Assembly: GCA_020284085.1 (NCBI GenBank)
Contig: JACEVL010000339.1
Span: 321,501-385,500 of the forward strand
Length of the DNA stretch: 64,000 nucleotides
From: Aporrectodea caliginosa
Lineage: Eukaryota > Annelida > Clitellata > Crassiclitellata > Lumbricidae
Direction: 5' to 3'
Shown here: positions 1 to 54,345 of the stretch, one piece after another
Layout of the letters: every line of letters starts with the position of its first letter
How positions within the stretch are numbered: position 1 is the first letter of the stretch
Notes under the pieces: model-generated
What the model saw: only the letters and a program-made list of their open reading frames with translations
What the model was told of the DNA's origin: nothing
Databases searched by the model: none
Position numbers and translations under genes: made by a program

Positions 1-345
1 ACATAGTGAGGTTCACGACTGACAGCAAAGAAGTTCATCATCTTTAACAAGAGAGAGAATTTGTTTACATGCTTTATGTTACATGACTAAGCAAGTAAAG
101 CAGTTTTAGGACAACTTGTCTTTAAACTATTAATAAGCACATTTATAAGGAGATGTTGTACGATTAACAAAGCAATTTAGTGTTCATAATTATAACAGAA
201 AAAGCAAAGAGCTTAAAGTCATCAAATTAACAACTTCAACATCGTTTGAAAGTACATACCTCAGCAGTCGTACATTTCAAAGTATTTTTAACTTTATTAT
301 TCAACAGCCATTTGCTTAGATGTAGCCTCTAAAGATGTGTATAAT
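1..345 (+). other. 3' end of a paralogous ITIM-type receptor gene (stop codon and 3'UTR)
   Basis: The first bases read ACA TAG and then match, with scattered differences, the stop codon and 3'UTR that follow the ITIM-type tail exon at 21,210. The shared block begins AGTGAGGTTCACGA and weaker similarity continues for about 300 bases (compare 21,205-21,545). I infer that the window opens in the last codon of an upstream tandem copy of that receptor, with its stop one codon earlier (AAG changed to TAG). Only the end is visible, so nothing can be said about the domains of that copy. Confidence 0.6.
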
Positions 346-559
346 ATAATCGGATTATAATAATTATATGCTAAAGACTTACATTTATTATACTTTCTTC
401 AGTTCGAAAACCGAGGCATAGGCCTACATGATTTTAATTTTATTCAAGTTATGTTATTCATTGTAGGCTACTCTTTGACATTATTGAAGTTAGTGCAATA
501 AACGGTATTCTATATATTGTTCAATATCAAATTAACTCTGTTTCCCATTCGTTTACATT

Positions 560-700
560 AATTGATGTCACCCGACTCTTTCTCTGAAGCTGGGCCTCGC
601 AATAGCAACCATCGACCGATGGCACTCCAAATCCCAGCCGTTATCAGGTCAAAATCCAGAAGATCAGTCTGTGACTAACCCACTGTGTGGTGCAGCGTAA
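560..700 (+). repeat. Interspersed repeat (CGATGG family), copy 1
   Basis: Contains ACCGATGGCAC, ATCAGGTCAAAATCCAGAAG and ATCAGTC. The same blocks recur in the same order at 11,545-11,620, 27,470-27,565, 36,205-36,460 and 40,722-40,815. It looks like a dispersed non-coding element or a piece of one. Confidence 0.5.
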
Positions 701-889
701 GCCAAACAAGACAGTCTCTCATTTTCAAGACATTGCTGAAAATAAGTGAATTAGACTTCTATCCAGTGATATGACTTCAAAGTCGTTTAAAATTCATGAA
801 CATGCACTCGAAACTCGAATCTAACAAACACTGTTAGGTCACATTCAGTGACCTTATCACATATCTACTCCATTACCTACAGGCACCGA

Positions 890-1495
890 TTATTGTCAAC
901 GTCATCGTGAGTGCGCATGTAACAGCGGACAACAGCTGCAATAGAGAAATAAAGATACATATAGGAAAGGCAACTGCTGCATTTGAGAAGCTTACTAAGA
1001 TCTGGAAGAAAAAGGGATTCAGTATGAAGACTAAGATTCCATAGTCTTGAGCACGCTGCTGTATGGATCTGAGACATGGCCAATTACGGTGACAAACAGG
1101 AGAAGATTGGAAAGCAGTAGTACATCATAAGTGGCTGAGAATAATCCTACATGTATCATGGCACCACAAGATACCAAACGAAACTGTCAGAGATGGAACG
1201 GGACAAGAAGATATAGAAACCATCGTTAGAAAGAGAAGATTGCAGTGGATGGGGCATGTGTGTCGTATGGATGAAGATAGACGAGTCAAACAAGCGATGT
1301 CCTGGAATTCTGGAGGTAGAAGGAAGAGAGGAAGACCACGTAAGAACTGACCGGAAACCATCAGAGACGACTTGAGATGCCTGGAGATGTCGTGGGACGA
1401 CGCCGTTGAGCTGGATATGGACAGAGACGAGGAGATGCGCTGCCTGATGTGCAGACCTGTACAGGAAGGACTGAGTACTAAATACGTCTAATTAT
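890..1495 (+). mobile_element. Decayed LINE ORF2 C-terminal fragment
   Basis: Broken plus-strand frames read like the end of RTE/CR1-type LINE ORF2 proteins. Recognisable words are KATAAFEKL, RRLQWMGHVCRMD and a GRRKRGRPR basic block, followed by IRDDLRCLEMSWDDA. Several stops and frameshifts interrupt it, so it is a dead 5'-truncated copy. Confidence 0.75.
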
Positions 1496-1499
1496 TATA

Positions 1500-2100
1500 A
1501 TGGTACTGTAATACATTTCACTGCAAAGATATAACTAGGTTGAGATAAGAGTAGGCCCTATCCGCCCTACAGAATACCACCTCAACAAAATGTAGGCCTA
1601 ATTAGAATTCGACTATTTTATTACAATACTGCTAGAGTCTCTGATCCTTATATAGAACCAGACCTCATGTTGCCTACTTCTATATTTTCTGTTATGACTG
1701 CGCTTGCTGGTGCCGCCTAATTAGCTCTTTAGGCGTTGTAGAATCTGAAAATAGCAATTACGATTAGGATAATTGTATCCTATCATAATATTATTGCTAA
1801 ACAAACCATAGAGCTCAATCTAGTACGTTAATTAAGGGTCTGTTTTCTCAGGACAACTCCAGTGTACTATTTTTAAAATCGCGCTTGAAACTAATAATAA
1901 TTATGTCTGTTTCTGAATGATAAAATTGAACAGTGCGAAGTGAAGGGTATATTAGTAATAGCTCCGTGTCTACGACTGCTAATACTTCCTCCTATAATGA
2001 TATCTTCGGTTAAAAATAAATGTAGCTTGCAGCAGAGAAAAACAGAATTACATCCTCATTGGATATTAAAAGTTTCTTATTTATATGTTCATCATTGGAC
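1500..2100. other. No gene seen; possible upstream region of the first receptor
   Basis: AT-rich single-copy-looking DNA with no recognisable coding or repeat content. It lies just 5' of the signal-peptide exon at 2,122 and may include its promoter and 5'UTR, but no promoter motif stands out. Confidence 0.3.
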
Positions 2101-2121
2101 AAAGCTAAGCAAAAGTTTGAG

Positions 2122-2182
2122 ATGTGTTTCCTTCACCAGCGGTGGTCTTTTGGCAGGACCGTTTTGACAACTATTTTTCTGG
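2122..2182 (+). CDS. Signal-peptide exon of a C-type lectin receptor (receptor A, exon 1)
   Basis: ATG with G at -3 opens MCFLHQRWSFGR, followed by a hydrophobic stretch TVLTTIFLG. The exon closes at a GTAGGT donor after one base of the next codon (phase 1). The coding part is 61 nt, the same length and phase as the independent signal exon at 10,937-10,997, which supports the call. It would direct the CTLD encoded 0.4 kb downstream to the secretory pathway. The hydrophobic core is short and transcript evidence is absent, so this is a prediction. Confidence 0.6.
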
Positions 2183-2597
2183 GTAGGTAATTAGATTTTT
2201 CTGTGGAAGATGTTGAGGAGTTTCAATCATAAGAAATTCTTTTACCGTTTCCTGGCGAATGTATTTTCTGCATGGCTTCGCTAATGGAACATGACTTCGA
2301 CTTCTATTTGCTTTGAACCGTCCATCGGTTTATGTCTGCAACAGAATTCCGTAGCTATACTTACATTCATTAAATTTATCGGGTTGTATACGCTTTAGGT
2401 TCTTTTAACACATACTACCTGCGTGTTATCACTGGTAGAATTGATCATATTTTTTTAGTTCAGATGATTGGCCCTATAATTATGGTTATAACAACCTCCA
2501 ATTTGTGATTAATGCGCTTATGTTGTATTTGATATTTATGTAATATTGTTGACGCCTTTGAACGTTGGAGATTATTTATTTATTATTTGCACGACAG

Positions 2598-2888
2598 GGT
2601 TCTCTTTCGTTGACAAGAGTACTTCAAATCAAGCGATCTGTAGAAGCACCAACTCGAGAAGCATTTCTTATTTCAAAGTAACCAATGTGGAATTGGATTG
2701 GAATAAAGCTTTGCAAGAATGCATTAATCGAGAATCAAACTTGCCTGTCATTTGTAACAAAAACGAGCAGGATGCTTTAATGAACTATCTAAAAGTAGAT
2801 ATAGGGCGGTCATCCGTATGGACATCCGGGAGAAAGAATCAATTCTTCAACTGGACATGGATTGATGGACAACCTTTCAATACTAGTC
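2598..2888 (+). CDS. First half of a C-type lectin-like domain (receptor A, exon 2)
   Basis: The exon opens after a TTTGCACGACAG acceptor and closes at a GTAAGA donor; both ends are phase 1. It encodes 97 residues with the CTLD pattern: a W-N-A-x4-C helix (LDWNKALQEC), an LPVI strand, a DALMNYL helix and the aromatic WTSGR...FNWTWIDG core. It is clearly homologous to the minus-strand exon at 9,317-9,622 (NDQDVLEGYL, WTAGR, TWTWVTGE). The canonical WIGL core is replaced by VWTSG, and no EPN or QPD calcium/sugar motif is visible, so classical sugar binding is doubtful. With 4,154-4,267 it completes one extracellular CTLD. Confidence 0.8.
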
Positions 2889-3360
2889 GTAAGACGTTCA
2901 TTTTTTCTATGGATACTGATACAACATAGCATAAGAATGAATCTGTGAAAACTGTATACAGTATATACTCCATTGGTTCTCAAATCATATCAAATTCTTG
3001 TATTCAATATCAAGTTATCAATATCGCACCTTGCTACAACAGTGTTACAGTCAACTATTAGACTAAGCTTAAGTTAGCGCACTTTTCAGTTGATGCTTTT
3101 ACATAAGACTGGTGAAATAAAGTTCAATTGTTCATGTTAAGTATCAGGTTTCTTTTTTAGCGACGATCAGACAGTTTTACTGTATGACTTTCAATGATTA
3201 CGTGACACTACCTTAACTAGAGTGACTGTCTTTATGCGGTTAACCGTTCTACTTTCGCGCGGAATCCTCAGGATGACCACAAATTAACCATCAGCCTCGA
3301 ATACACAATTCTTTCGTCAAGACTGTGCTGCGTGTCGTTTGGAATATCAATTAATCATTT

Positions 3361-3720
3361 TTATTGACCCCAGAAAATGTAAAATATCGAATTTATATAC
3401 ATACAATAGAACCCACAAGAGAAAGCGGGAGGACCATGTCCTAAGGTCTGGACGTCGTTAGCATTGAAGTGGCCAGTGGCGAGGTGTTTAGTAAATAAGG
3501 AAGGAATGTCCGCTGTGTAAAGTAGGTACAAGATGGGGGCCGAGGACTGAGCCCTGCGGGACACCGAACTAGAATTCAGCCCAGATCGTTCTGGAATCAC
3601 CAAGGACAACCATCTGTACGATCTGAAAGAATAGATTTGAGCCACAATGGCCACAAGATAGTTCAAGACGCTGCAGGATCAACTATATCAAAGGCGGAGG
3701 CAACACCAAAACGTATCAGG
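3361..3720 (-). mobile_element. CR1/L2-type LINE reverse transcriptase fragment
   Basis: The minus strand reads APILYLLYTADIPSLF and then TGHFNANDVQ. These match the L-Y-x-L-Y-T-A-D-I-P and YADDVQ region of CR1/L2-like reverse transcriptases. The catalytic YADD is mutated to NAND, so it is dead. It lies in the intron of receptor A. Confidence 0.75.
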
Positions 3721-4153
3721 AGTGTTTACATGTAGATTCTTTATATACGAATTTTACAAGTTGCATGCGACTTACTGATTCAACAATCAGCTGATTCAAC
3801 GTCCTGCTTAAATAGGGTCGCCTATTAACACAGGTTAAATTTGGATGGCGATTGATTGTTGTTGGCATGAACGTATTTTATATTTATGTGAACATACGAC
3901 GTGAACATCTTTTATCTAATTTAGTGATCACAGGATTCTCAAAAAGACTCTATGTAATGTAGGCCTATAATCAATCTACTGAGTGCAAAAGCGAATGAAT
4001 GTTGTGTCGTGCACAAGTAAACGTGCACTATAAAAGCTTTTATTAAATGGTGATCATTGAAATGTCACAATCTAGGAACATAGAATTTAAGGTCCGATTA
4101 AGTATGGTATGACATGAGCTTACACCGACATTGTGCTGTTTCTGTTTATGTAG

Positions 4154-4267
4154 GTTTCATATCATCAGAGCATGAATCCTATACTCACGTTGCTTTGGAA
4201 TTGGAATCGGCAAATTATAAGGCTCTAGAACCTGTGCATAAATGCTACTACCTTTGTCACTATTCAG
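4154..4267 (+). CDS. Second half of the C-type lectin-like domain (receptor A, exon 3)
   Basis: The acceptor is TCTGTTTATGTAG and the donor GTTTGTG; both ends are phase 1, so the reading frame from 2,888 continues exactly. The 38 codons include HVALELESANYKAL and end CYYLCHYS, the position of the last conserved CTLD strand and cysteine. It aligns with VYAALRKDF...YICQHE at 7,401-7,517. No plus-strand transmembrane exon lies nearby. The phase-matched TM exon is on the minus strand at 13,824-13,908 (see the inversion finding). In the orientation given, the next compatible plus-strand TM exon is at 19,931. Confidence 0.7.
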
Positions 4268-4520
4268 GTTTGTGAACTCTTGACATTATTCATAATGTCA
4301 GATTCTTTATGTTGCGACACTGATTATTCTAAATAATTCGTATGGGATCTTAGCTGTTATGCAGATGTGACCTTACAATCATAAAGAATCCCTTTGATCA
4401 ATGTTTCTCTTCTCAATTAAAGCCCTTTAGGTTGACTTTATTCTTTAGCCCATCTCGTTAAAGACTTACTCATCCAGAATGCACGATAACGAATGTAGAA
4501 TTTTTAACTAGAGGTCTAAT

Positions 4521-4772
4521 CGGGGGGGGGGGCCGATAGCGCATTGGATAACACACTGGCATAGAGAGCGTAAGGTACCGAGTTCGAGTCCCGTAGGGCG
4601 GACACGCTTTGTAGGCTGCTATCAGCGCCGTGTATTGCAGGCTGTCTGTTCTGCTAGTGGTTAAGATTTTTGTCTTCTGTCATCTGTGTTCTTGTGAATT
4701 GTTTCAATTGCATAACTGTACACTGTAACGGGTTGCGGTTTGTCAACCGGATTGTTTCAATAAACGAAAAAA
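4521..4772 (+). mobile_element. tRNA-derived SINE, family 1 (plus copy)
   Basis: The 5' part resembles a tRNA: TAGCGCATTGGATAACACA (box A region) and GAGTTCGAGTCCC (box B) in correct order. A tRNA-unrelated body follows, ending AATAAACGAAAAAAAATATT. A second copy in reverse orientation lies at 9,790-10,046, sharing the body words TTGCGGTTTGTCAACCGG and ATTGTTTCAATAAA. Confidence 0.8.
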
Positions 4773-5114
4773 AATATTATTATACCGAATATGATGAATC
4801 CGAATAAACGTGTGTATGGATCATAAAATTGACCGAGACAATAATAAGATATCTTTATAGGTTTCCTAAATAACAAACTGGGTAGCGCTCTAGATTCACA
4901 AAAAATAAGACCACTGTTCAATTACGTTTGGTATAAACTTTAGGTTCTTCATGTAACTCTGGAAATGCCATACGCGTGATAAACGGCTGCGTGAGACCAA
5001 GTGATGACGATCCTATCAGTAATAAATTACAGTCCATAACTCGAATCTGAAGCCATGTAAAGTTTTGTCTCCCACAGCACAAAATATTGGGACGAGCAGT
5101 CGACTGCTTGTCCA

Positions 5115-5170
5115 CTGGGTGTCACTGAAGGGGTGCTATATAAATGTTCAATTACATTACATTACATTGG
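5115..5170 (+). repeat. LINE/SINE 3' terminus with ATTAC tail
   Basis: GGGGTGCTATATAAATGTTCAATTACATTACATTAC is the 3' end shared by several elements here (10,753, 11,506, 12,480, 35,740, 46,170). It ends in a short tandem repeat, typical of target-primed retroposons. Confidence 0.6.
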
Positions 5171-6196
5171 CAGATTGATAATGCATTCGCCTTCACTTCT
5201 GTGTCTGCAATTCAACTCTCAGTGCATTGCATGAAAATGAAGTTTCATAGTAAACCATGTAACCTGCATGGAAACTTTTTACAGGTGGCAGACACCTGTT
5301 GCTATTTTTGTGTTCCCATTCCTACCTTCATATCAGCAGCGGAAAACCATTTAATTCATTTTGGTTTCATGTTGTTAGGTTGGTCACACCTCTGAGGAAT
5401 TTTCTCTTTACGATACACGAAATAAATGTAAAATTATGTAACAAATGAGCAAAAAGAAACATACAGGTAACAACTCGTTTACTCGCCTCTACACAAACTC
5501 CTCAGAAGCGTAAAGGTAACAGAACCATACTTCTCTAAATACCTCAATAGAAACTGGTCAGAAGTATGGTCCAAATGTCAACGGATCTTGCCCAGCTGCA
5601 GCACAGCCACAGCAATAGCAATCCTATGACACAAACCTTTTTACCTCCCAAAATGCATTACTCATCAGGTAAGGATGAAGAGTGGGAGCCAGGTGGCAAC
5701 GTATTCCATGGACAGTTATCCATCCAAGTACTAATCAAGCTCCATTTGTCTTAACCGCAACTGCCAGCATTGTACTAATGCAACAAGGGGCCAGACAATT
5801 ACATTACCTTACTGCAACAGGAAGAACCCCAAAACCATCATAGCAATGGATCCGAGTGAACAGCACAAAAACAGACCACGTCACTGATGAACCACTCTTG
5901 AATTTCCTAATTGTTCTACATCTCTATCATTATAGGTACCTACAGTTCAAGTACGCCAAATCAGCCATCACCTCTCTTAAATAAATTATGCTGTAAGGCC
6001 ATTTGACGCAACTCAATGCAGAACTGACATTTGTAATTATGTTTGCAATAAGAAATGTTATGAGGCATTAGATGTTGTAATAGGTATTTATATGGCTTAT
6101 CAAAAGTAATCTCAAGTGTAGACTTCAACAGAGCAGATAATAAATGTATGTATTTAATTTCACAAGCAAGTGGAAATTATGATTTTGAGTACTTAC

Positions 6197-6340
6197 CTCT
6201 TTGGCACACAACTTCCTTTGGTTGTTTGCATCCAACTGCCTTCCAATTACCATCGGATGCATCAATGGAAATACATTCGCCGCTCCTTGAAAAGATATTG
6301 ATGTCCCAATTGGTGAATTTAATATCGTCATTCGATTCCG
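6197..6340 (-). CDS. Second half of CTLD 2 (receptor B, exon 5)
   Basis: On the minus strand the exon runs from a TATGTAATGTGTTCAG acceptor to a perfect GTAAGT donor; both ends are phase 1. It encodes FTNWDIN, then GECISIDASDGNWKAVGC and ends VVCQRG. This is the classic C-terminal half of a long-form CTLD with three conserved cysteines. The canonical WND is replaced by GNWKAV. Joined to 6,847-7,074 it gives a complete CTLD. No minus-strand TM exon was found further downstream. Confidence 0.85.
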
Positions 6341-6846
6341 CTGAACACATTACATAAAGTGAACAAATTATATGTAATGTAGAATTGTAGAATGATTACT
6401 AAAATATAACTTTAAACTGTACACTCTATATAGGATAATAATCGACAGCCAACAGGGACCAGGATCATCCTGCTGCATTAAGGCCTCCTATTAGTACAAT
6501 AATTGAAACGGAAATAGAGCGAGAATGAACTTAAATGCGTAAACGCATCAAATCCTGGTGGCAGTGATCACAGACCAATTATAAAGTGATGTTATTTGAG
6601 TTTTCGCCCGTGCTCTATAAAGACACAATAATGTTCTACTACAGAGTTACACAGTGTCGATTACCAGGTTTTGTGGCAAATTTTAAATGCCTGCTGTGGA
6701 TATAGTTTCGTAATGTAAAACGTTTGGATTAAGTTCGTGCAACTAGTTTTTATTATGACGCTGCACTGTAACCATAGTTGTGTCTTCAACCTATGACGAT
6801 TCGTTACAAGACGTCTTTACAGCAAAATTATTATTCCTGAACAAAC

Positions 6847-7074
6847 CATTATCAGTCCGAAACCAACGCCAAGATTTCTTCCTCAATCCAATCCAATGAG
6901 TCCGGTCTAGTGTCAACTTTTTTAGAAATTCTTGGTCCTCGTCGCTTATGACTGCCAAGTCTCCGTTACTCATTAGGCACTGATTTCTGGCATCATACCA
7001 CGTTCTCCTGTCGTTAATCAATCTGAAACACTTGTTATTCACGATCATGTCGCTGACAGAGTTGCAGTAAGTAC
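6847..7074 (-). CDS. First half of CTLD 2 (receptor B, exon 4)
   Basis: The exon opens after GATATTTCAG and ends before GTTTGT, phase 1 at both ends. Residues include YCNS...NNKCFRLI, the helix RRTWYDARNQCLMSNGDLAVI, DEDQEFLKKL, and an intact WIGL core followed by WRWFRTDN. Cysteine pattern and WIGL make this the most canonical CTLD in the window. There is no EPN/QPD triplet, so calcium-dependent sugar binding is not predicted. The two CTLDs are separated by one phase-1 intron, as expected for shuffled extracellular modules. Confidence 0.88.
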
Positions 7075-7400
7075 CTGAAATATCCATTCAGAAATTCTAG
7101 AGTAACTATGTAGCACAAATATCTTAAGAAACTAAAGCCAACCATAGTCAGTGCAGCAAACTGAATCAGTTCGAACACTTTAAAGCAATGCATGTGGTAG
7201 AAAACGCAGTAAAATGAAATATATTTGCTACTTTTCTTGTCCTAATCTGGCAAAAATGCACCAGAATCGAACTGCCAACATTTCATAATATGTACTTTAT
7301 AACTTTCAAACAAGACTTAGTGACTAATACTGAGAGCTGACGTGGTTCAGTAAATCAATTTCTACTTGGAAATGTCGAAACTATGTAATTATTAACATAC

Positions 7401-7517
7401 CCTCATGTTGACAGATGTAGGGAAACTCGTTATGAGGAGCTCCTGTCGTTAATGTAAAATCTTTTCTTAACGCTGCATAGACTTCCCCAGTTTGTCTTCC
7501 TTTTCGCTGAAGTTCTA
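7401..7517 (-). CDS. Second half of CTLD 1 (receptor B, exon 3)
   Basis: The exon runs from a TTTTGTTACACAG acceptor to a GTATGT donor, phase 1 at both ends (117 nt). It encodes ELQRKGRQTGEVYAALRKD and ends FPYICQHEG, the terminal strand and last cysteine of a CTLD. It follows 9,317-9,622 in frame across a 1.8-kb intron. Confidence 0.8.
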
Positions 7518-8059
7518 CTGTGTAACAAAAAATGAGGCAACACAATGCGTAAGGTTAAAGTATTGAATACCAGAGCATAATTATAGGCCTAGCAGTGGCC
7601 ACAAACTATCGCTTTAAACTGAATTATAATTAGTGTATGATCAAATTGTATAAATCTGTCAAATTGTATGTAGGCTATGTATTAAATTACAGAAAACTGT
7701 GAAATGATCTACCTTGAGGCGGTTAATGTTTGTCGTATCAGATAAAATGAATTTACAACATCAGATAAACTAATTAAAACATTTAATGTGCATTTCCCAC
7801 AGAGTGGTGGCTCCAGAGTTTCCCCTGTAGACCCGCCACTGTTCCCACACTGGGTCGATAGAGGAGCTTGAAGAAATGTGATTGATGTTTATGCATGATT
7901 TACGATTTACGAACTATGATTTACGCATTTATCCGCTATCTGCTATCTGCCACTGAATAAATGTCTAGTTAATCTGGGTTTGTTGTATCCAGATTGCTGC
8001 TGAACATTTGCGCTATATAAATTCTGATTATAATGACAATAATTCATCAGAATACATTA

Positions 8060-9110
8060 TAGAACTCTATTTAATATTGCCCTTCTTCCAAAGTTCAAAA
8101 GTGCACGCACAATTCTCAGATCAGTATGGTTTCTGCCCCAAGGGATCTACCACCGCAGCCCTTATAGCCCTGACCCAGGGTGTTCTGGAGCTCCTTAAAG
8201 ATAACCTTTACATTCGTATGATGGCTCTCGACTTCTCCAAAGCTTTTGATACCATCCGTCAATGCGTATCTCGCGGAGCAACTGGCCGAGATTCCCATTC
8301 CAGACTTAATGCATGACTGGATTTTAGCCTTCCTGACAAACCATAGTCACGGACCAAAATGCAATGGATTGGTCTCGGATGCCACTAATATCAGAGCCAT
8401 CATTGTACAGGGCTCCGGTCTGGAACCATTGAACTTGAAAGCCATTGAGCCACATCGACGCTCAAAACAGTCCATCTCCGCAATCCGTGATAGTCCGAAT
8501 ACGCTGCCGACCCTTGCCTGTTAGTACCAGCCATTAGCAGTGACAAGACCGGGGAGAACTGGATAATGTAACGGAGTGGGCCAAGTGCTGCACTGTTAAT
8601 CAGGGAAAGACTCAGGAGAGGAGATGATAGTCCGTCGATAGGGTTGCGGCAGGTGGATCGTTTATAATAAGAATGTGTATAAATGTATGTACTCCAAAGT
8701 GCGGATATGCAATTGGTAAAGAATATACTTACTTACTAGTCCGTCCTAGGGTGCGCAGGTCCAGAGTGCCGGGTCTTCCGCGGGTCCAGAGCATGATTAT
8801 TCTATGAGTTGCCATGACTGTAAACCTAGGTTCTGAAGCGCATATGAAGTGCATATGCGTACAGGGAAGACAGTCTTTATATATGCCTGCGAATCATGAC
8901 AGCGAACGGCCTCAAGGGATCCAGTATACATGACGTGGTAAGAATTATCACATTAACCCGCATGTTCTATGCGAACCCGGTATAGTGGGGCTTCGCAGGG
9001 CAGCAGACTGCAGTCCGTGATAGACCGTTTGGTCCGACTGCACTATCTACCTGACGAGAGCCTTCAAGCAGTTATGTAAAACAGTGGATGGGAGCCTCTT
9101 TGCCTCTGTA
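8060..9110 (+). mobile_element. Decayed LINE reverse transcriptase, same family as the copy at 28.1 kb
   Basis: Plus-strand fragments in shifting frames read DQYGFCPKGSTTAALIAL, ALDFSKAFDTIR, then QGSGLEP and later FAGQQTA. Each matches in order the longer RT at 28,085-29,170 (DQYAF, SLDFSKAFDT, QGSGVGP, WWGFAGAED). Frameshifts and a deletion before the YADD region make it a pseudogene. Confidence 0.8.
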
Positions 9111-9316
9111 CTGCGTCATCAGGGCCATGCGTTGAATCCAAAGAAATTATTGTTTCAGAAATCCCAATTTTATTTTAGGAAACATCTTTTTCATTAATCC
9201 AGCTTCCATTTTAATTTGACGCTATAAAATAATTTACCAACCTGAACTAGGGGTGTACCCACATAATGATTGTTGTGTGTCTGTCTCTACGAAATAAAAC
9301 TATGACAAGGACGAAC

Positions 9317-9622
9317 CTTGATCAGATTCTTTCGGTGATTCTCCAGTTACCCATGTCCAGGTGCTGAGAGAAACGTTTCTGCCTGCTGTCCATGCAGCAG
9401 AATTTACTATATGTGACTTTAAATAACCTTCTAGAACATCTTGATCGTTTCTGTTACGAATGACCGGCATTGTTGAGTTTAAGGAATTACACAGTAGCCA
9501 GGCTTCATTCCATGGCAGAAGCTCCTGACTGCCTTTGAAATAGCAAATGATTTTACCGCGAACATTCGCACACGTTTCTTTAACGGGAATGCTGTTCCCA
9601 GGTAAAGCTAATTCTGTGATTC
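9317..9622 (-). CDS. First half of CTLD 1 (receptor B, exon 2)
   Basis: The exon opens after a TTTGTTTGGTTGCAG acceptor and closes before GTTCGT, phase 1 at both ends. The 102 residues contain TCANVRGKIICYF, PWNEAWLLCNSLNSTMPVI, NDQDVLEGYLKSH and AAWTAGRNVSLSTWTWVTGE. Two potential N-glycosylation sites (NST, NVS) fit an extracellular domain. It is the closest relative in the window of the plus-strand CTLD at 2,598-2,888. Upstream on the minus strand, the phase-1 signal exon at 10,937-10,997 joins in frame. Confidence 0.85.
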
Positions 9623-9789
9623 CTGCAACCAAACAAAACTGACAAGTGAAGAAAGGGTTTAGACTGTGTGCTTAGATGTACTAATAAATACCTAAACGAA
9701 GTTTAAAAAACATGTGACATATCGTCCTTTGCCTCAAATAAGTATAGTATAATATCAAAAGAACACGAGGTATACAAATGATAACCAAA

Positions 9790-10046
9790 CATAATAATAA
9801 TATTCTTTATTGAAACAATCCGGTTGACAAACCGCAACCGGTTACAGTGTACAGTTATGCAATTGAAACAATTCACGAGAACACAAATGATAGAAGACAT
9901 ATAAATCTTAACTACTAACAGAACAGACAGCCTGCAATACACGGCGCTAATAGCAGCCTACAAAGCATGTCCGCCTACGGATCTCGATCTCGGTACCTCT
10001 CGCTCTCTATGCCAGTGTGTTATCCAATGCGCGATCGGGCCCCCCC
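9790..10046 (-). mobile_element. tRNA-derived SINE, family 1 (minus copy)
   Basis: Reverse-complement copy of the SINE at 4,521-4,772: TTTATTGAAACAATCCGG tail end on the left, box B and box A complements near 9,980-10,035, and a C-run at the 5' terminus. It sits in the first intron of the minus-strand receptor. Confidence 0.8.
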
Positions 10047-10139
10047 CATGCAGTTATAGTATACTGTACATAATTTATCGTATGCTGTACATAGGGTATC
10101 GTAACTTTTCATAGACCTTACTTACGATAGGCCTAATTT

Positions 10140-10420
10140 TACGCGCTGAGAGCCAAAAATACATGTATAACGTTGCTGTGTGGATAAAATCTACTATAAT
10201 TCCCGTGGTCTTTCTACGAGGTTTATCGACGTTTGCTTCTCTGCCGCAGGACCCACGACATGGAACAGTCTTCCCAACCAAGTGAAGAATGCGCCATCTC
10301 TAGAGTTCAAATCAAAGCCCAATACCTTTCTTTTTAAGCAATCATATGACTGCCATTTACTTTTTGAACTCATGTGCAGCGCCATTTTCTTCGGCCTCGG
10401 CTGAGCTTCGATAGAAATCG
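10140..10420 (+). mobile_element. LINE ORF2 C-terminal fragment
   Basis: The plus strand reads NSRGLSTRFIDVCFSAAGP and TTWNSLPNQVKNAPSLEFK. The x-W-N-S-L-P pattern is typical of the extreme C-terminus of LINE ORF2 proteins. Upstream sequence is absent, so it is 5'-truncated. Confidence 0.65.
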
Positions 10421-10560
10421 TCTCACCATTTAAAAATACTATGAAAGTCAAGTGTATGCAGATTCCTTGACTAAGATACGTAGATCCAAAATCGGTCATT
10501 TCTGATACGGGACAACGTTACGTTGTTGAAATGCAAGCATAAGGAAAACAAAATCACTTC

Positions 10561-10784
10561 GGGCTCTCCACGGGTGGTGTAGGGGCATGTTCAGTGCCTT
10601 GCAGCCGGAGGGTTGCGGGTTCGAATCCACCTCAAGCCGCCGCGTAGGGACCCTGGGCAAGTCCTTCACTCGCAATTGCTCATGCGCTTCGGCGTGAAAC
10701 TCCGATTCAGTGTCCGCGCTGTAGTCGGGAGCGCCTCTGAGTAGAAATCTTGAAGGAGCGCTATAACAAGTGTTCATACGTACA

Positions 10785-10818
<34 letters not shown>

Positions 10819-10830
10819 CATACATACATT
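10561..10830 (+). mobile_element. tRNA-derived SINE, family 2, with CATA tail
   Basis: A tRNA-like head has GGTGGTGTAGGGGCATG (box A region) and a perfect box B GGTTCGAATCC. The body contains CCTGGGCAAGTCCTTCACTC, and the 3' end GGAGCGCTATAACAAGTGTTC is shared with LINE ends in the window. It finishes in a (CATA)n tract. Shared tails suggest mobilisation by the partner LINE. Confidence 0.8.
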
Positions 10831-10936
10831 AGGTACATTTATAATAGGTAGAATGAAATATAATAATTATGCAGAAGTTACTCCTGTCTGCAACGACTTA
10901 CGCAAGACATCTGTTGATAGAGATTAGAATACTCAC

Positions 10937-10997
10937 CGAAGACTATTACCAATAGAACATGTATTCCTATTGATTGGCAGAAGGGGATCGAAAACAT
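10937..10997 (-). CDS. Signal-peptide exon of a two-CTLD receptor (receptor B, exon 1)
   Basis: The minus strand has ATG with A at -3, then MFSIPFCQSIGIHVLLVIVF, a convincing signal peptide with a strong hydrophobic core. It ends at a consensus GTGAGT donor in phase 1. The coding part is 61 nt, identical in length to the signal exon at 2,122-2,182. The next exon on this strand (9,317-9,622) accepts phase 1, so the secreted/ectodomain frame is continuous. Confidence 0.75.
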
Positions 10998-11439
10998 TCT
11001 AACCCTCTGCAAGCTAAATTCTGCTAGAATAGTCCAACAAAACGCGCAAATAATATCCACCTACTGGAATACGTTCGTTCCAAAGACCTTATTTTGCACA
11101 ATATTATGCAGTTTTACAAGTAACCACTTAGGGCCATGGAACTTGTAACATGTAGACTGATAATATTATGCAGTAGGCTTACATAAATGCATGCATGTAC
11201 ATTTGACTGCGATTCGACTATTGGTATGAGAAAGCTAATACTATCGTTATCGCAGCTTACTGTTGGCTAACCGTAAGTCAAATACGCTTAGTAATAATTA
11301 ATTAATCCTGCACGATATTTTAGTGTGAAATGCTCACACGGCGCATTTGAGAGGTTACTAGATAGGTTGTAGAAATTCACAGACAAATGCACATAGACTA
11401 ATGATGAATTGGTAGCTTCCACAACGCCATTTTATATCA

Positions 11440-11530
11440 CAATCCCAACCAACCCTATTTGGCCGGGGTTGGGTCGGGAGCACTTCTGAGTAGATGGTCA
11501 TTGAAGGGGCGCTATATAAATGCTTCTAAT
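11440..11530 (+). repeat. LINE/SINE 3' end
   Basis: GGTCGGGAGCACTTCTGAG followed by GGGGCGCTATATAAATGC is the common 3' terminus of the retroposons in this window. Confidence 0.6.
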
Positions 11531-11544
11531 AAATAAAAAAAACA

Positions 11545-11620
11545 TTAGGCACCAACCGATGTCTTACCAATACCTAGCCGTAATCAGGTCAACACTAACA
11601 AAGGCCAGTCCGCCGAGGCA
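11545..11620 (+). repeat. Interspersed repeat (CGATGG family), copy 2
   Basis: CCAACCGATG and CCGTAATCAGGTCAACA match the blocks of the copy at 560-700 with moderate divergence. Confidence 0.45.
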
Positions 11621-11939
11621 AAGAGACAGATTGTGGTGCATAAGACGGCTGAAAAGGTTCAAGGACTGCTGCAGGAGGTAAAAGTCTTATCGAGATTATA
11701 GGGCGCGGTTAATCGGTGCTTGGCATGATCTGTATTAACAAATTACTGTTTATAACAGTGCTGATAGTCTTTAAATTACACCACACTATGTTACTGAACA
11801 TTACATTATGCTAAGTCAATATCCAACTTTCTATTGTGCTATAACAAGTGATACATACATACACAATATTAAAAAAATAAGTCAAAGCTATAATATAAAA
11901 AGTAAACGAAAGTGGTTTGACTATTTAATAACAGTCACT

Positions 11940-12510
11940 TTCTCCTCACGCGGTCAACACTCTCGTCCATGCACTGATTTGTACTAGGGTTGACTTCGGC
12001 AACTCCATCTATGCTGTTCTCTCTTCACTAAACATCTCCAAACTTCAGTCAATTCTTAACGCTTTCCGCCTGCCTTATTTGTGGTCTCCCGAAGTATTCT
12101 CACATATCTTCCTTCATTCGGGAAACTCTACACTGGCTTCCTGTGCCCCAGCGCATTCAGTTCAAAATTCTCACACTTATGCGCAGCTCTCTGCTCGGCG
12201 TAGCTCCTTCATACCTTCAGGCCTGATGCACATCGGTTTCTACACTCCCTGGTCGCTCTGCTCTGCGCTCTGCCGTCAGAGGCCTTCTGGTGTCCTCGCA
12301 TGCGTGGTGCAACTGCTCAATCCAGAAGCTTTGCTTATGTCGGCCCTCCAATTGGAACCATCTTCCGCATGAATTGCGTCTTGAGCTCCTCAGCCTTTCT
12401 CTGCCTCTGTTTCGGAAACGCCTGAAGCCTATCTTATTTGTTAGAGCCCTGGGTCGGGAGCGCCTCTGAATCCCTGAGTGGCGCTATATAAATGTCCAAT
12501 TACAATTACA
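11940..12510 (+). mobile_element. LINE ORF2 C-terminus with its 3' end
   Basis: Broken plus-strand frames encode a LINE ORF2 end (PSYLQA-like, HLPHELRLELLSL). They are followed by CTGGGTCGGGAGCGCCTCTGA and the shared 3' terminus GGCGCTATATAAATGTCC with an ATTAC tail. Stops and frameshifts show it is dead. Confidence 0.7.
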
Positions 12511-12639
12511 AACAGAAACTGGATTTTGAAAACTTAGTCTCTAAGTCTCTAATGATGAATCTGAAATCTCTTACATCATGACAACACCTCAATCGAATAT
12601 AACTGTTACTTTATTTACCTCTTGTCATTATAAAGCTGG

Positions 12640-13220
12640 GATAACAGTCTGTATAATGATTATGGGTGATCTGTATAAAGTGTAAAATTGAAATTTTATG
12701 CTAACTGCAACAGAACCTTGTACACCTACACCTTTACAAAAAGAGCTAATACCTACTTAGACTTCATTGTCAACCATTATGACAAACTAATAGTAACAGG
12801 GTTGTCGATAGAATTTGTGCAACAGTGTGGGAAACTACGCAAACACAATGCCAGATAGTATGACTTAGAGCCAGTCTAAGGTTATCTAATACTTACTTAG
12901 CCACCTGGATAATTAACTGATACAGTGTCTCATAAGTGGCTTACAAAATCGCCGCTCCGCATATTTAACTAATGGTAAATTTTAAATGTTCCCAAGAAAT
13001 AAATATTGCTCAAATAAAGGAATACATGCTTTGTCATATCTCACGAATCGAAACTCTCGTTTAACAGACTTGGACAAACCAGGTTAAAGGCAAGTAATGC
13101 AGTGTTCGACAGATACTAATGGGTAAAGATTCAGGAAACTACGCAAACATGGCGCTGGTTCAAGCATGTCATACACGGGAATCAGATAATATTAGTAGTA
13201 CAGTTACTTAAATAATCTGA
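12640..13220 (+). repeat. Two diverged direct repeats sharing GAAACTACGCAAACA
   Basis: Stretches near 12,780-12,930 and 13,050-13,220 share GTGTTCGACAGAT/GTTGTCGATAGAATT-like and GAAACTACGCAAACA words. It looks like an old local duplication downstream of the ITAM-like tail exon. No coding signal is seen. Confidence 0.3.
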
Positions 13221-13343
13221 ACACTTGCTACTAAAGTTAATTAAAACAAGTTCACTAATAAGCAAGCAGTTCTAGGATAAAGGAATGGCTGGCTATAACC
13301 TGCTAAAAACAGTAACATGGTAAGTGATGGTATGATCTTCAGT

Positions 13344-13521
13344 TTAGTTAATTTGAACGCGGTGATCAATGTCCACGTTGACAGACGTGTTCATAGACTG
13401 GTTGCAATAATATTGGAGTTCAGCGTAGGTACCGTCTGGATTCGCCTGCCTACGAGTCGTCTCCAAATCCTGATAACTACTATTAGCTGCTGTCTCAATC
13501 CGCCGTGCGGCTTGTGCGTTC
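13344..13521 (-). CDS. ITAM-like cytoplasmic tail exon (receptor A, last exon)
   Basis: The minus-strand exon opens after CTGTGTTTACAACAG with one base completing an Arg codon and runs 58 codons to TAA. It encodes two tyrosine motifs, SSYQDL and GTYAELQ, spaced YxxL-x12-YxxL. This fits the ITAM consensus YxxL/I-x(6-12)-YxxL/I, like vertebrate activating adaptors. It follows the TM exon at 13,824-13,908 in correct phase (2). Phosphorylation by Src kinases and recruitment of a tandem-SH2 kinase is the known ITAM role; here it is inferred from the motif only. Confidence 0.75.
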
Positions 13522-13823
13522 CTGTTGTAAACACAGAGTGTGGATGATTCTTTATTAGCATAATTCTTATTCAAAATTATTTTATTTTGAGAAAGCTATC
13601 TACTTAAACAAGGAAGTTTTGTTTACCAGACCCGTATACGGTCTGATGATATTTAAATGGAAGTAGTTTCTTTCATTTAGGCATTTCATATATAAAAAAT
13701 TCATCTAAGCAGTATAATGATAATTATATTAGCTAGCTACATGTACTTGTGACTAATTTAATATAACAATCTACATGACTCTTGCCAAAAACATAACAGT
13801 AACTGACATTAAAATTGACCTAC

Positions 13824-13908
13824 CGATTAACAACCTTTCTGACGACGAATGCAACGATGACATTCGAGATGATGATTACACATATGCCTACCATCACCAC
13901 AGACATGA
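13824..13908 (-). CDS. Transmembrane exon (receptor A)
   Basis: The minus strand has a CTGTTATTTGCAG acceptor, 85 nt, then a GTAGGT donor; phase is 1 in and 2 out. It encodes MSVVMVGICVIIISNVIVAF VV followed by RKVVNR, a single hydrophobic helix with a basic stop-transfer, so the C-terminus is cytoplasmic (type I). The TM exon at 19,931-20,024 has the same phases. A phase-1 acceptor needs an extracellular phase-1 exon upstream. None was found on the minus strand above 13.9 kb, but the CTLD exon at 4,154-4,267 on the plus strand fits. Confidence 0.75.
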
Positions 13909-13949
13909 CTGCAAATAACAGAGCACTAGGTGAACAACAAACTTAAACA

Positions 13950-14900
13950 AACTTACGGTCAAGCTGAATCATAATTACAGTGTTTTCTACAATGTATGAA
14001 AGATAAACCAGTTGCACGTGTAGAGCAAAAAGAAAATTCCAATTGCGAAGAAATGTATCGCACGAACAGTGATTTTACCACAAGCAGTAATTTAAGGTAT
14101 GTGCTTTGAGCCAGAAATTATAATAGAGAGACATAACTTATGTAAATAACGATCGTTTAATATGCATGGTGTCAGTTATATTTTTAGAGGATATGCCTAC
14201 ATGAATATCAAAATGAATGCCTCACATGTAGCATAGCCTACACATACTTCTCCAACAGACGCTGGCACAAGAGCTTCAACAAAAAGAAACACTTTAGGTG
14301 TTCAAAAGATGTAAATAGAAAATGCTTTGTGGGATAACTTGAGATGATTTCTAAAAGTTAATGAATATATCGTGAAAGAGTCTAGTAGTTATAAATTCTA
14401 GTTTTATTTTTCAGATGCTTAAGTCCTATATTCCAGCATACTTAGCCTTGATTATATACTTGGCAATGCGATTGCTTGAGTAATGTTTGTTGTACCTGAC
14501 GTAGTTCCCGACTCCGTTTTTGACGTGATTTCATCTGTGTTTTTGTGGAAATTCAAGGTTTTTGAAACTGGAATTTCTTCTTGTTCTCCTTCAATGGACG
14601 TAGGCAAAAGAACTTTAAAAACAAACAGTTTTGTCTTATAAAGATGTCGCGACCAAATCTCCAGCTATTTGCACAACGTTCTGAACTGGCTCCCTTAAGC
14701 AGCGAATCGAGTACAGGATATAGATATCGATGTTCTGGCGCTTGTGATCTCATACATAGGCCTACATGAATTTATTGAATGAGATCTGCCCAATTCTGGT
14801 TATTTTCCAGACAAACTCTATTATACGCAGGAAAGTGTGTTACTGAGGATATTGTAAAACAATTAACCACTTTTACAATTGATCAAAGCCTCCTTATCAT
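13950..14900. other. No gene seen; probable right inversion-junction region
   Basis: AT-rich sequence without recognised exons. A few isolated open frames lack homology and splice context. The switch in receptor strand must occur between 13,908 and about 15,200, so this interval probably holds one junction. Confidence 0.3.
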
Positions 14901-14939
14901 CTCACGCCTGCTCCTTCCTTGAGTATTGCCATTTCCATG

Positions 14940-15170
14940 GCACACAGCCGAAAGTTTCAAGTGTGGGCTCGTCTCAGGGCCGTGTTCAAATCTAAGTCTA
15001 GTACGCGCAGATTAGCTTCAACCGTTCTTGTCCATGTGTGGCGAGGGCGTCCAACAGACTTCATCCAACCTCTCGGAGGGACGGAAATCATTGTTTGCAA
15101 CGCCCTGACGTGGTCTTGTAAACCTTTTAGCGCTGCACGTTTAAGCTTGGCAGTCATCAGTCTCTAATTG
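14940..15170 (-). mobile_element. LINE ORF2 C-terminal fragment
   Basis: The minus strand reads SVGRPRHTWTRTVEANLRVL and LDLNTALRRAHT, the usual end of RTE-like LINE ORF2 proteins. A related, shorter piece recurs near 17,330-17,400. Each abuts a copy of the TTYGSQ exon-like sequence, suggesting that LINE piece and exon were duplicated together. Confidence 0.65.
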
Positions 15171-15215
15171 ATGATATACGCTCAATTAATTTTGCGTGTG
15201 TGTATCGAACACTAA

Positions 15216-15251
15216 TGTTTCAGCTGCTCGTGATGAAAGTACAACTTATGG
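15216..15251 (+). CDS. Candidate 36-nt symmetric micro-exon encoding ARDESTTYGSQ
   Basis: CTAATGTTTCAG precedes and GGTTCT follows a 36-nt stretch that would be phase 1 at both ends. It encodes ARDESTTYGSQ. Being symmetric, it could be inserted between the phase-1 CTLD and TM exons without a frameshift. The donor is weak. Related sequences occur within the 57-bp repeats immediately 3', and near 17,240, 17,500, 17,700 and 18,880. It could be a stalk exon, a displaced tail motif, or simply the seed of the minisatellite. Confidence 0.35.
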
Positions 15252-16460
15252 ATCACAAGGTTCTATATTGAAAAGTTCAGCAGTTTCCAAAAAAAGAACA
15301 ACTTATGGATCACAAGGTTCTAGACTAAAGAGTTCAGCAGTTTCCAAAAAAAGAACAACTTATAGATCACAAGGTTCTACACTGAAGAGTTCAGCAGTTT
15401 CCGAAGAAAGAACAACTTATGGATCACAGGTTACTATGCCTAAGAGTTCAACAGTTTCCGAAGAAAGAACAACTTATGGATCACAGGTTACTATGCCTAA
15501 GAGTTCAACAGTTTCCGAAGAAAGAACAACTTATGAACCTCAAGTTACTATGCCTAAGAGTTCAGCAGTTTACGAGGAAATAACAACTTATGGATCACAA
15601 GTTACTATGCCTAAGAGTTCGTAAGTTTCCGAAGTAAGAACAACTTATGGATCACAAGTTACTGTGCCTAAGAGTTCAGCAGTTTACGAAGAAATAACAA
15701 CTTATGGATCACAAGTTACTATGCCCAAGAGTTCAGCAGTTTCCGAAGTAAGAACAGCTTATGGAGCACCACAAGTTACTATGCCCAAGAGTTCAGCAGT
15801 TTCCGAAGTAAGAACAACTTATGGATCACAAGTTACTATGCCTAAGAGTTCAGCAATTTCCGAAGAAAGAACAACTTACGAATCAGAAGTTACTATGTCT
15901 AAGAGTTCAGCAGTTTCCGAAGAAAGAACAACTTATGGATCACAAGTTACTATGCCTAGGAGTTCAGCAGATCCCGAAGAAAACACAACTTACGAATCAG
16001 AAGTTACTATGTCGAAGAGTTCAGCAGTTTCCGAAGAAAGAACAACTTATGGATCACAAGTTACTAAGTTATATACTGCAGAGTAAGACCTCAGCATTTA
16101 AATTTCCAGCAGTTTCCGAAGAAAGAACAACTTATGGATCACAAGTTACTTGCCTAAGAGTTCAGCAGTTTCCGAAGAATGCAACAACTTACGGATCACA
16201 AGTTACTATGCCTAAGAGTTCAGCAGTTTTGAAGAAAGAACAACTTATGGATCACAAGTTACTATGCCTAAGAGTTCAGCAGTTTCCAAAGAAAGAACAA
16301 CTTACGAATCAGAAGTTACTATGCCTAAGAGTTCAGCAGTTTCCAAAGAAAGAACAACTTATGGATCACAAGTTACTATGCCTAAGAGTTCAAGTTTCTA
16401 AAGAAAGAACAACTTAGTAATCACAAGTTACTATGCCTAAGAGTTCAGCAGTCAGTCAAA
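15230..16460 (+). repeat. 57-bp minisatellite encoding TTYGSQVTMPKSSAVSEER
   Basis: About 20 tandem units of 57 nt (19 codons), most with one consensus peptide TTYGSQVTMPKSSAVSEER. Early units use GSILKSSAVSKKR instead of VTMPKSSAVSEER. The unit keeps frame for about 140 codons at a time, broken by a few stops (for example near 15,622 and 16,084) and small indels. KSSAVSxxRxxYG matches KSSAVSRPREVIYGNL of the ITIM tail exon at 20,658-21,210, so the repeat arose from, or gave rise to, that receptor sequence. Scattered units continue to about 17,000. Confidence 0.85.
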
Positions 16461-17900
16461 GAAATACTCAATATGTCCACCACTTGCTTTATGATTGCAT
16501 CAACACGAGATGACCACTGATCGATGGCTGAGTCCACCAGTGCTTGGGAGTTCTCAGACCAGAAGAAAGAACAACTTATGGATGTTCAAGTTACTATGCC
16601 CAAGAGTTCAGCAGTTTCCGAAGAAATAACAACTTATGGTTTACAAGTTACTGTTCGGTAAGAGTTCTCCGGTTCAATTAAGAAAGAACAACTTATGGAT
16701 CACAAGTTACTAACCTTGGAGTTCAGCAGTTTCCTGAAGAAAGAACAACTTATGCGATCACAGTTGCGGCTGTTAGACGTTCTCCTAGCATCAATTTGTT
16801 TAATTAATCGACGTACTAGAGCATATTTATTCCAGTTTTCTAGAAGGGAATTCTGTCATCATCTGATGTGCATTGTATCCTTTTATGCTCTTAAAATTCG
16901 GATTACGAAATTCTATCCTCTTCCGTGGATCATCAGTTCACTATGCCTAAGAGTTCAGCAGTTTCCAAAGAAAGAACAACTTATGGATCTGTGCAAGTAT
17001 ATCCAATGTTTGAGAAATGATTACTTTCGGATGAAAGTATATTGGGCACGATGTTCGGATAACAATTGTTCAGCATTTATCCATTCAAAGAATAACTTAC
17101 TGGATCACCCTGTTTCATGAACTACGATGTTTCAGCCACTTCGGATGATAAACGACTCGTAATGACAATGTTCTAAAAATCTTCTGTTTCTGCTGTTTTG
17201 GAAGAAAGAACAACTTTTGCATCGCAATGGTCAATATCGCAGAGTTCAGCGGTTTCGGAAGAAAGTACAACTTATGGATCACAAAGTTCCATTTTAAGAT
17301 TTTACGTAGGCATTTCCAGCGTTCTATGTCAATTATGTGACGAGCCAGTCCAAAAGACATTACGCGTTCTCTCGGAGGACCTGGAATGGTAAGTGTAACC
17401 GTTGAAGCGCTGGCAGTTAACGCCAGGCTAGTTATGCAGTGTCTAATTAGCTGATAATAGTCTCACTTCATTTTACGTTTATGTATCGAACCCTTCTGTT
17501 TCGACTGTTTTGGAAGAAAGAACAATTTAAGGATCACTAAGTTGTATACGGTAGCATTTTTGAATTTCCAGTGTTTGTGAAACTTTCCAGATGATTCACT
17601 AGGTATTTGGCTTCTTGGTCTAGTCTACAACTTTTGAAAGCATTTAGAAAAACTGTTATAGTGAGCATGTGTTTAGAAATCTTCTGCTTCAGCTGTTTTG
17701 CAAGAAAGTACAACTTATACGATCAATGCTTTCTATGCCACAAAGTTCAGCGGTTTCGGAAGAAAGTACAACTTATGAATCTCTTGTTTCTATACCGCTG
17801 CTTTACGTAAGCATTTGGATTTCAAGTGTTTGTGAAAATTTTCAGATGACTAAGTTGGTATTTTATTTCTTGATCTAGTTGCCTTAATGGATCCCTAATT
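16460..17900 (+). repeat. Dispersed degenerate copies of the 57-bp unit and its exon-like core
   Basis: Isolated units lie near 16,560-16,750, 16,940-16,990, 17,195-17,290, 17,500-17,530 and 17,695-17,780. They sit among longer duplicated spacers containing GTTTGTGAAACTTTCCAGATGA and GTATCGAACCCTTCTGTTTC. The larger spacer plus core was duplicated several times before the tandem expansion. No intact exon set could be assembled from it. Confidence 0.6.
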
Positions 17901-18725: not shown

Positions 18726-19289
18726 CTGTAAATCCGTAACTCGTATATTTGCCTAGCGCCGAAAGGTGAGTGTTTTTACGTCAGACAACAATTAATGTCT
18801 CAGTTTGCAGTGTCTAATTGATATATCATATAAGCTCACGTTATTTGTGATGTGTGTATGGTACTCTTCTGTTTCAGCTGGTTTGGACGGATCACCAAGT
18901 TCTGTACCGCCGATCTTATGTAAGCATATGGATTTCCAGTGTTTGTGAACTTTCCAGATGATTTTGTGGTCTTTGGCTTTTAATAATAGTCTTATTTGCC
19001 CCAATAGATCCAAATTTCATTAGAGTTGCCATCTAGTGTTAATGCTTAACTCATAGTTATCTGGCGTCCTAAGGTCAATGCTTTAACGTCAGTTAGTTGA
19101 GCCTCATAAAATTAAATTGAAACTTTAAAAATTTATGTATGGAACGACCTGCCACTCGACTCCGACTTCTCTAACACTACCTTTGATGATATCTAAGTCC
19201 CTGAGGGATCAGTGTATAACCTTCTCAAGGAAAAATAATAATAATAATGCAGTGTCAAGTTACCTACAATCTTATTGTTTCTTTTTCAG

Positions 19290-19462
19290 ATTGAGATTTT
19301 CTCACGCACAGCTGTATTATATAATCGAAATGACGTTGTCATATTTTACTGTGTTAGCAGTTGTCGTTCCTGCAATAATAATGTTATTATCTGCATCACG
19401 CCTTTACTTAATTAATCGTCGTCGTCTTGCTGAGAAGCAGAAACAGAACTGGGAAGTAAGAT
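19290..19462 (+). pseudogene. Transmembrane exon copy 1 (probably non-functional twin)
   Basis: After a TTGTTTCTTTTTCAG acceptor, the frame reads through MTLSYFTVLAVVVPAIIMLL into LINRRRLAEKQKQNWE and a GTAAGA donor in phase 0. It is about 80% identical to 19,870-20,026. It codes a plausible helix, but its phase-0 end does not fit the tail exon at 20,658, which needs phase 2. At the position of the working GGGTAGTA donor this copy has GGGAAGTA. I read it as a duplicated exon that lost its original donor, or an alternative ending. Confidence 0.5.
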
Positions 19463-19930: not shown

Positions 19931-20024
19931 TGTTAGCAGTTGTCGTTCCTGTAATAGTAATTATTATCTGCATCATCTGTATCATCGTCGTCGTCGTCAT
20001 GCTGAGAAAGAGAAAAAGATCTGG
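19931..20024 (+). CDS. Transmembrane exon copy 2 (receptor B)
   Basis: A TTGTCATATTTTAG acceptor begins a 94-nt exon (phase 1 in, phase 2 out) encoding LAVVVPVIVIIICIICIIVV, then VVMLRKRKRSG. This is one long hydrophobic helix followed by a basic cytoplasmic anchor. The donor GTAGTA is weak but puts the tail exon in frame. The acceptor exists only because this copy lacks two bases present in the twin (TTTTACTGTG became TTTTAGTG). Phases match the independent TM exon at 13,824-13,908. It would follow the CTLD 2 exon (phase 1) once the inverted block is reversed, or the CTLD exon at 4,154-4,267 in the given orientation. Confidence 0.6.
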
Positions 20025-21210: not shown

Positions 21211-21540
21211 GGTTCACGAATGACGGGAAAGAAATGCATTAACCTTAAGAGAAGAAATAGAATTTGTTAACAAGTTCTCTCTTATATAGTTAAGTAATTA
21301 AAACATCCCTGCAAAAACTTATCTTCACGCTCTTTATCAACAATTTTACACAGAAATTTTATATTTTATTGCAAATATTTTAGAGGACATATAGAAGGAA
21401 AGCAAAAGGCTACAATGTCATTAGTTTAAGTTAAAAACTTGAATATTTTTACCCTGCATACTCACCTGCTGTGCATTTACAAATGATTTTCACTTTATTA
21501 ATTTCAAGCATTTACTTGGTACGTGTAGTCAAGAAAGATG

Positions 21541-21728
21541 TTTATATGAAATAATTGGATGATATATGTTTCAGACTTAGTCTGGTTAAATACTTTTTTA
21601 TTTTATATATGAAATAATTGGATGATATATGTTTTAGTCTGGTTAAATGCTTTTTTATTTTATATATGAAATAGTTGGATAATATATGTTCAAGACTTAG
21701 TCTGGTTAAATACTTTTTTATTTTATTC
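21541..21728 (+). repeat. Three tandem copies of an approximately 63-bp AT-rich unit
   Basis: TATGAAATAATTGGATGATA followed by TAGTCTGGTTAAATACTTTT occurs three times in a row. The middle copy is 6 bases shorter. No coding content. Confidence 0.8.
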
Positions 21729-33000: not shown

Positions 33001-33056
33001 ATCATATTTTGTGGAGCAAAGATGCGTCCTTGCTATAATGCTCAATTGTCTTGTAG

Positions 33057-53959: not shown

Positions 53960-54345
<386 letters not shown>

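Follow-up and report, generated by a model that had tools for sequence, protein, structure and literature searches.

Opposite-strand halves of two C-type-lectin receptor genes in Aporrectodea caliginosa and a possible inversion behind them

We examined a 64-kb window of DNA from Aporrectodea caliginosa (contig JACEVL010000339.1, positions 321,501 to 385,500, numbered here from 1), in which the exons of two predicted C-type-lectin receptors, A and B, lie within 2-21 kb. The original prediction for this locus held that an inverted block splits both genes, leaving the head of each receptor (signal peptide and C-type lectin-like domains, CTLDs) on one strand and its transmembrane (TM) and cytoplasmic exons on the other. 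The head of A occupies the plus strand and consists of a signal-peptide exon (A1, 2122-2182, AG/GT boundaries, phase 1 out) and two exons encoding the first half (A2, 2598-2888) and the second half (A3, 4154-4267, AG/GT boundaries) of a CTLD. The head of B is on the minus strand, with a signal-peptide exon of 61 nt like A1 (B1, 10937-10997, AG/GT boundaries), the first and second halves of CTLD1 (B2, 9317-9622; B3, 7401-7517, AG/GT boundaries), and those of CTLD2 (B4, 6847-7074; B5, 6197-6340). Taken singly, A2, B2, B4, and B5 matched Pfam Lectin_C (PF00059, curated cut-off 22.6 bits) with 33.9, 25.7, 35.2, and 23.7 bits. When spliced, all three CTLDs (3/3) matched the profile nearly end to end: A2+A3 covered positions 3-105 of 107 with 36.8 bits, B2+B3 scored 30.4 bits, and B4+B5 scored 64.2 bits. 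The predicted strands of the CTLDs, that of A on plus and the two of B on minus, were therefore borne out by three complete domains, and all twelve exons originally listed have AG/GT boundaries.

A2 and B2 are 41% identical over 78 amino acids, a relatedness of ectodomains within one cluster that is expected of paired activating/inhibitory receptors; the nucleotide similarity of the signal exons A1 and B1 did not exceed that of shuffled sequences. Among solved structures, the B ectodomain was most similar to lymphocyte antigen 75 (7jpt, E 2e-24), and 135 distinct PDB sequences matched it at E 0.1. Profiles of CTLD halves, made from the six exons described here plus pieces of one fish protein, were searched against the 2013 six-frame segments of at least 20 amino acids in the whole window and detected no further halves, the next best matches having E-values of 0.32 and 0.53. 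By construction, the known first halves were recovered at E 6e-28 or better and the second halves at 4e-15 or better; because the profiles were built from these same exons and the fish protein, the weight of the scan lies in the absence of further matches.

On the minus strand lies a module ending in an immunoreceptor tyrosine-based activation motif (ITAM). It comprises a stalk exon that the original list did not contain (14496-14612, phase 1 in and out), a TM exon (13824-13908, AG/GT boundaries; our TM scan also lists a longer form that uses an acceptor at 13941), and a cytoplasmic exon with the motif YQDL-x12-YAEL and a stop codon (13344-13521, AG/GT boundaries). The TM and ITAM exons predicted for this strand are thus present with their splice signals. 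Chance estimates for tail motifs were obtained from 20,000 shuffles of the tail sequence. The ITAM pattern arose in 122 of them, indicating that YQDL-x12-YAEL is unlikely to be accidental, and a single inhibition-type (ITIM-like) match in the same tail, SSYQDL, which overlaps the ITAM, arose in 1918. By its predicted ITAM motif, the cluster has a putative activating-type member. The minus TM exon resembles copy 2 of the plus-strand TM exons (score 39, reached by 0/60 shuffles). Upstream of the ITAM tail, the profile scan detected no CTLD half on the minus strand up to 64 kb; the distance from the stop of the ITAM tail to the next start, in signal exon B1, is ~2.3 kb.

The plus strand carries a second module, with a long tail. 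It opens with a stalk exon (15224-16762, acceptor AG at 15222-15223) that runs into a decayed 57-bp repeat array and meets its first stop at 15622-15624. The array itself (15235-16762) codes for stalk-like sequence and is decayed by stops and indels, and degenerate stalk units go on to 18.9 kb on the plus side. Two further exons were absent from the original list: an intact stalk exon (18878-18919, phase 1 in and out) and a degenerate duplicate TM exon (19361-19455) whose donor does not match the phase of the tail exon. The TM exon of the module (19940-20024, AG/GT boundaries, found in the TM scan) is followed by a long cytoplasmic tail exon (20658-21210, AG/GT boundaries). This TM exon has two overlapping donors, a weaker-looking one at 20025 (gtagta) and another at 20028 (gtaagt), and a plus-strand product needs the former because the latter would make a stop, TA|A, at the junction. 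Both exons had been predicted on this strand together with an ITIM in the tail. The exons were confirmed, and the ITIM is a candidate only: the tail has one ITIM-like motif, VIYGNL, and such a motif occurs in 2669/20000 shuffles, which is within chance.

The left edge of the window holds the 3' untranslated region (UTR) of an upstream long-tail paralogue (1-359, plus strand), whose stop, placed by alignment, is TAG at 4-6 (TGA at 7-9) and whose coding part falls immediately outside. This segment is 66% identical (E 1e-12) on the same strand to 21202-21564, where the long-tail gene ends and its 3'UTR lies, and the extended alignment of the two 3'UTRs scored 266, compared with 128 for the highest of 60 shuffles. 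The plus-strand position of the upstream 3'UTR argues for a head-to-tail array on that strand. From the stop of the upstream paralogue to the next start, that of A, is ~2.1 kb.

We estimate a probability of roughly 55% that a real inversion in the animal best explains this layout. The ancestral locus would have carried A (CTLD, stalk, TM, ITAM) followed by B (two CTLDs, stalk, TM, long tail), both on the plus strand. A one-off inversion within this head-to-tail receptor array, a true event in the animal and no product of assembly, would have broken two CTLD-to-stalk introns, one in the ITAM receptor A and the other in the two-CTLD, long-tailed B. The plus strand today would then yield the signal peptide and CTLD of A spliced to the stalk, TM, and long tail of B, and the minus strand would be left with a B head that has no membrane anchor and an ITAM tail that has no head. 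In a model of four modules, just one single inversion gives two complete genes (the A head with the ITAM tail, the B head with the long tail) on the same strand with their domains in order, and the restored genes run in the direction of the array.

The left junction lies at 4268-6196, an interval containing a SINE-like (short interspersed element) copy at 4524-4780. The right junction, originally placed at 13,909-15,215, could be narrowed to between 14613 and 14984-15045, bounded by the minus stalk exon, whose edge is at 14612, and by a plus stalk-unit alignment reaching in from the right; the left interval stayed as predicted. These limits give an inverted block of about 8.4-10.8 kb. The alignment on the right pairs 14984-15221 with 17286-17502, a later plus stalk unit (score 139, against at most 72 in 100 shuffles). 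Its left part alone, 14984-15086, scored 64 against a highest shuffle of 40, and its leftmost piece alone, 14984-15045, scored 37 against 44 and was not significant. Judged from these alignments, the plus side certainly extends to 15045 and probably as far as 14984. In the restored arrangement two introns would share the ~2.3-2.4 kb of the junction intervals, to which 3.9 kb are added if the first exon that B joins is the one at 18878. Ten other introns measured 302-1799 nt. The restored introns are of ordinary size, which favors the inversion; the present plus gene requires an intron of 11.0-15.7 kb that encloses exons of the opposite strand.

Reading frames do not choose the partners. Joins between head, stalk, and TM exons are in phase 1 throughout, and both tails follow their TM exons in phase 2. 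Computed without stalk exons, all four pairings are open: A with the ITAM tail (729 nt), A with the long tail (1104 nt), B with the long tail (1494 nt), and B with the ITAM tail (1119 nt). The first of these lengths agrees with the original prediction, whereas the 1503 nt given there for restored B was not reproduced. The claim that matching phases pick out the partners was not confirmed, since every head-tail pairing is open, and because phase 1 is uniform between head, stalk, and TM exons, being in frame throughout is uninformative about who belongs with whom.

Several observations weigh against the inversion. Open frames and phases favor no particular pairing, as just described. Within the same four-module model, at most one inversion is needed to reach two complete genes from 60/192 module arrangements, and to reach a same-strand tandem pair from 36/192. 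One inversion of the twelve exons does restore two complete same-strand genes, as originally claimed, but such a fit is not rare, and because 60/192 arrangements fit too it amounts to modest evidence. Moreover, the original prediction named other TM and tail exons in cis for each head as grounds for doubting it. For A such exons exist, on the same strand and in frame at 19.9-21.2 kb; for B they were not found, so that only the B head and the ITAM tail are orphaned in the present layout. A TM scan, like the lack of further CTLD halves, speaks rather for the inversion, although its reach is limited (it missed the degenerate copy at 19361-19455): plus 4268-15221 gave no candidates, and minus 1-6196 gave three variants at a single place, 887-994, which were rejected as antisense to a frame resembling a long interspersed element (LINE). 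Thirteen comparisons between paired parts failed to tie the split halves together. Only the pair of long-tail 3'UTRs and the pair of TM exons exceeded every one of the 60 shuffles. Promoters, introns, signal exons, stalks, tails, and the ITAM-side 3'UTR fell short, and no intron homology linking the halves was found. Searches for stalk-unit remnants in the left junction interval, comprising 18 alignments (nine queries on two strands), gave nothing convincing; the three lowest (1, 3, and 3 of 60 shuffles) were all on the minus strand, as expected, and are too weak for us to count as support. The best inverted repeat between 4268-6196 and 13909-15215 was 24 bases at 83% (E 0.054), which is not significant. 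Homologues offered no help either: 0/300 candidates for A, and for B 1/4117, a distant CTLD protein (E 1.8e-8) of Pogonophryne albipinna, which we take to be a fish, with no close relative. The argument for an inversion is weaker than originally stated.

The in-frame plus-strand gene is the starting point of a rival explanation, in which the A head, stalk, TM, and long tail form a native gene. Its large intron would have received, by insertion or duplication from another place in the family, an inverted block combining the 3' half of an ITAM gene with the 5' half of a two-CTLD gene. The plus halves are indeed in cis, ordered, and in frame (1104 nt), the minus exons are what one would expect in a segment of a tandem array that holds the 3' half of one gene and the 5' half of another, and one event is enough here as well. 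However, this scenario calls for three cuts between CTLD and stalk exons (the insertion site and both ends of the block) versus two for an inversion, it requires a plus intron of at least 11 kb, and a second copy of the block was not seen in the window, either by self-comparison (E 1e-5, at least 60 bases) or in the CTLD-half profile scan. We regard it as unlikely. The minus exons could instead be relics of old minus-strand genes in a mixed-strand cluster with decayed fragments, their other halves having been lost. Decay is plain on the plus side, in the broken 57-bp array, the degenerate TM copy, and the degenerate stalk units; yet the eight minus exons still have their splice sites and open frames, and the halves they lack are exactly those that the plus strand supplies, leaving this history highly improbable.

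That the assembler placed a segment in the wrong orientation we also doubt, slightly more than we doubt an inserted block. The sole N run in the window (192 bases, 40210-40401) suggests a scaffolded assembly, and a SINE-like pair in inverted orientation, 90.7% identical, shows that local repeats able to confuse an assembler are at hand. Neither junction contains an N, however, and the position of the pair does not fit the right junction, so that a flip between its copies leaves B1 behind. A double misjoin within a gapless stretch is, moreover, uncommon. The ranking of a real inversion, an inserted inverted block, and an assembly error is one of plausibility only.

The SINE-like copies, at 4524-4780 and 9791-10047, align over 259 columns and have a tRNA-like head by eye. 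An inversion between them was ruled out as the event at this locus, because it strands signal exon B1 on the minus strand. Recurrent inversion through inverted repeats was similarly unsupported: the junction intervals share no significant repeat, and a repeatable, homology-driven flip-flop is therefore without sequence support. A more far-reaching version of the preferred inversion holds that it is real and that the present layout works, phase-1 joins having allowed one flip to turn an activating ITAM receptor into a long-tailed, putatively inhibitory one in a single step, with both orientations perhaps coexisting among individuals as an activating/inhibitory switch. We think it improbable that this whole proposal holds.

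Outside the receptor cluster, the window contains several other elements; its LINE pieces and Polinton-like element, together with the split exons of the lectin-type receptors, give it the look of animal DNA. A LINE-type reverse-transcriptase frame lies at 28007-29170 (RVT_1, E 3e-20). A large open frame at 32804-34795 has a SAM-domain match below the curated cut-off and at least 4 relatives among 7998 candidates scored, the best among the matches listed being 76% identical. Gag- and aspartyl-protease-like retroelement frames occupy 42091-44179 on the minus strand; the protease match falls slightly short of the Pfam cut-off and the second frame has no match. A (TAC)n triplet array of ~115 units is found at 53992-54337. 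It is followed by a Polinton/Maverick-like element (54922-63979). A frame of 1069 amino acids in this element was taken by eye as its DNA polymerase, Pfam giving only a sub-threshold endonuclease VII match; a second frame encodes a double-jelly-roll capsid protein (PF21738, E 2e-54), and there are neighboring frames besides. The sequence TAGGCCTA is over-represented, with 18 occurrences versus 0.83 expected from base composition; this sequence is common in echinoderms, which is at most a hint to the source. Rfam returned 0 matches in the window at gathering scores.

Lectin receptors of natural killer (NK) cells are type II proteins, unlike the receptors described here, which have a type I exon order. 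The likeness of B to lymphocyte antigen 75 (DEC-205) is one of domains only and is strongest in the second CTLD (query residues 149-258). Judged from titles and abstract openings, the literature searched held no receptor genes split by inversion in the same way. Among the rearranged receptor families it did hold, LILR genes form two inverted duplicated clusters, and KLRG1 was possibly placed by duplication plus inversion, according to the accessible part of one report (PMC1193534; see also Wende et al. 2000); like the present genes, the NK-complex C-type lectin receptors and LILR are clustered, but what moved there, as far as that part goes, were whole genes or clusters, whereas here the genes are split. 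Another case is that of the dog CEACAM1-related ITAM/ITIM receptors, in which, as the available text of PMC2110893 describes, TM and cytoplasmic exons were exchanged between related receptors. This resembles the re-pairing of TM and cytoplasmic exons proposed here in a different receptor family, and the one inversion mentioned in that text involves an entire rodent chromosomal region and not the splitting of a gene. A further parallel is human FCGR2C, which the portion of PMC6563257 that we saw presents as a hybrid of the FCGR2B ectodomain and the ITAM-like tail of FCGR2A, ascribed to unequal crossing-over. There too, on that account, ligand-binding and signaling halves of clustered receptors were re-paired by DNA rearrangement. 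The same portion describes a non-classical ITAM in the Fc-gamma receptor cluster, which we take to be that of Fc-gamma-RIIA, with 12 residues between its YxxL boxes, the spacing of YQDL-x12-YAEL in the present ITAM. Unlike FCGR2C as portrayed there, the locus described here involves CTLDs and a proposed inversion, and its predicted product joins the head of an ITAM gene to a long tail. The re-pairing of binding and signaling halves is thus known in mammals, in the FCGR2C case as excerpted, through unequal crossing-over; if our interpretation is true, inversion would be another route to new head-tail pairs in a lectin-receptor array, eased by uniform phase-1 introns.

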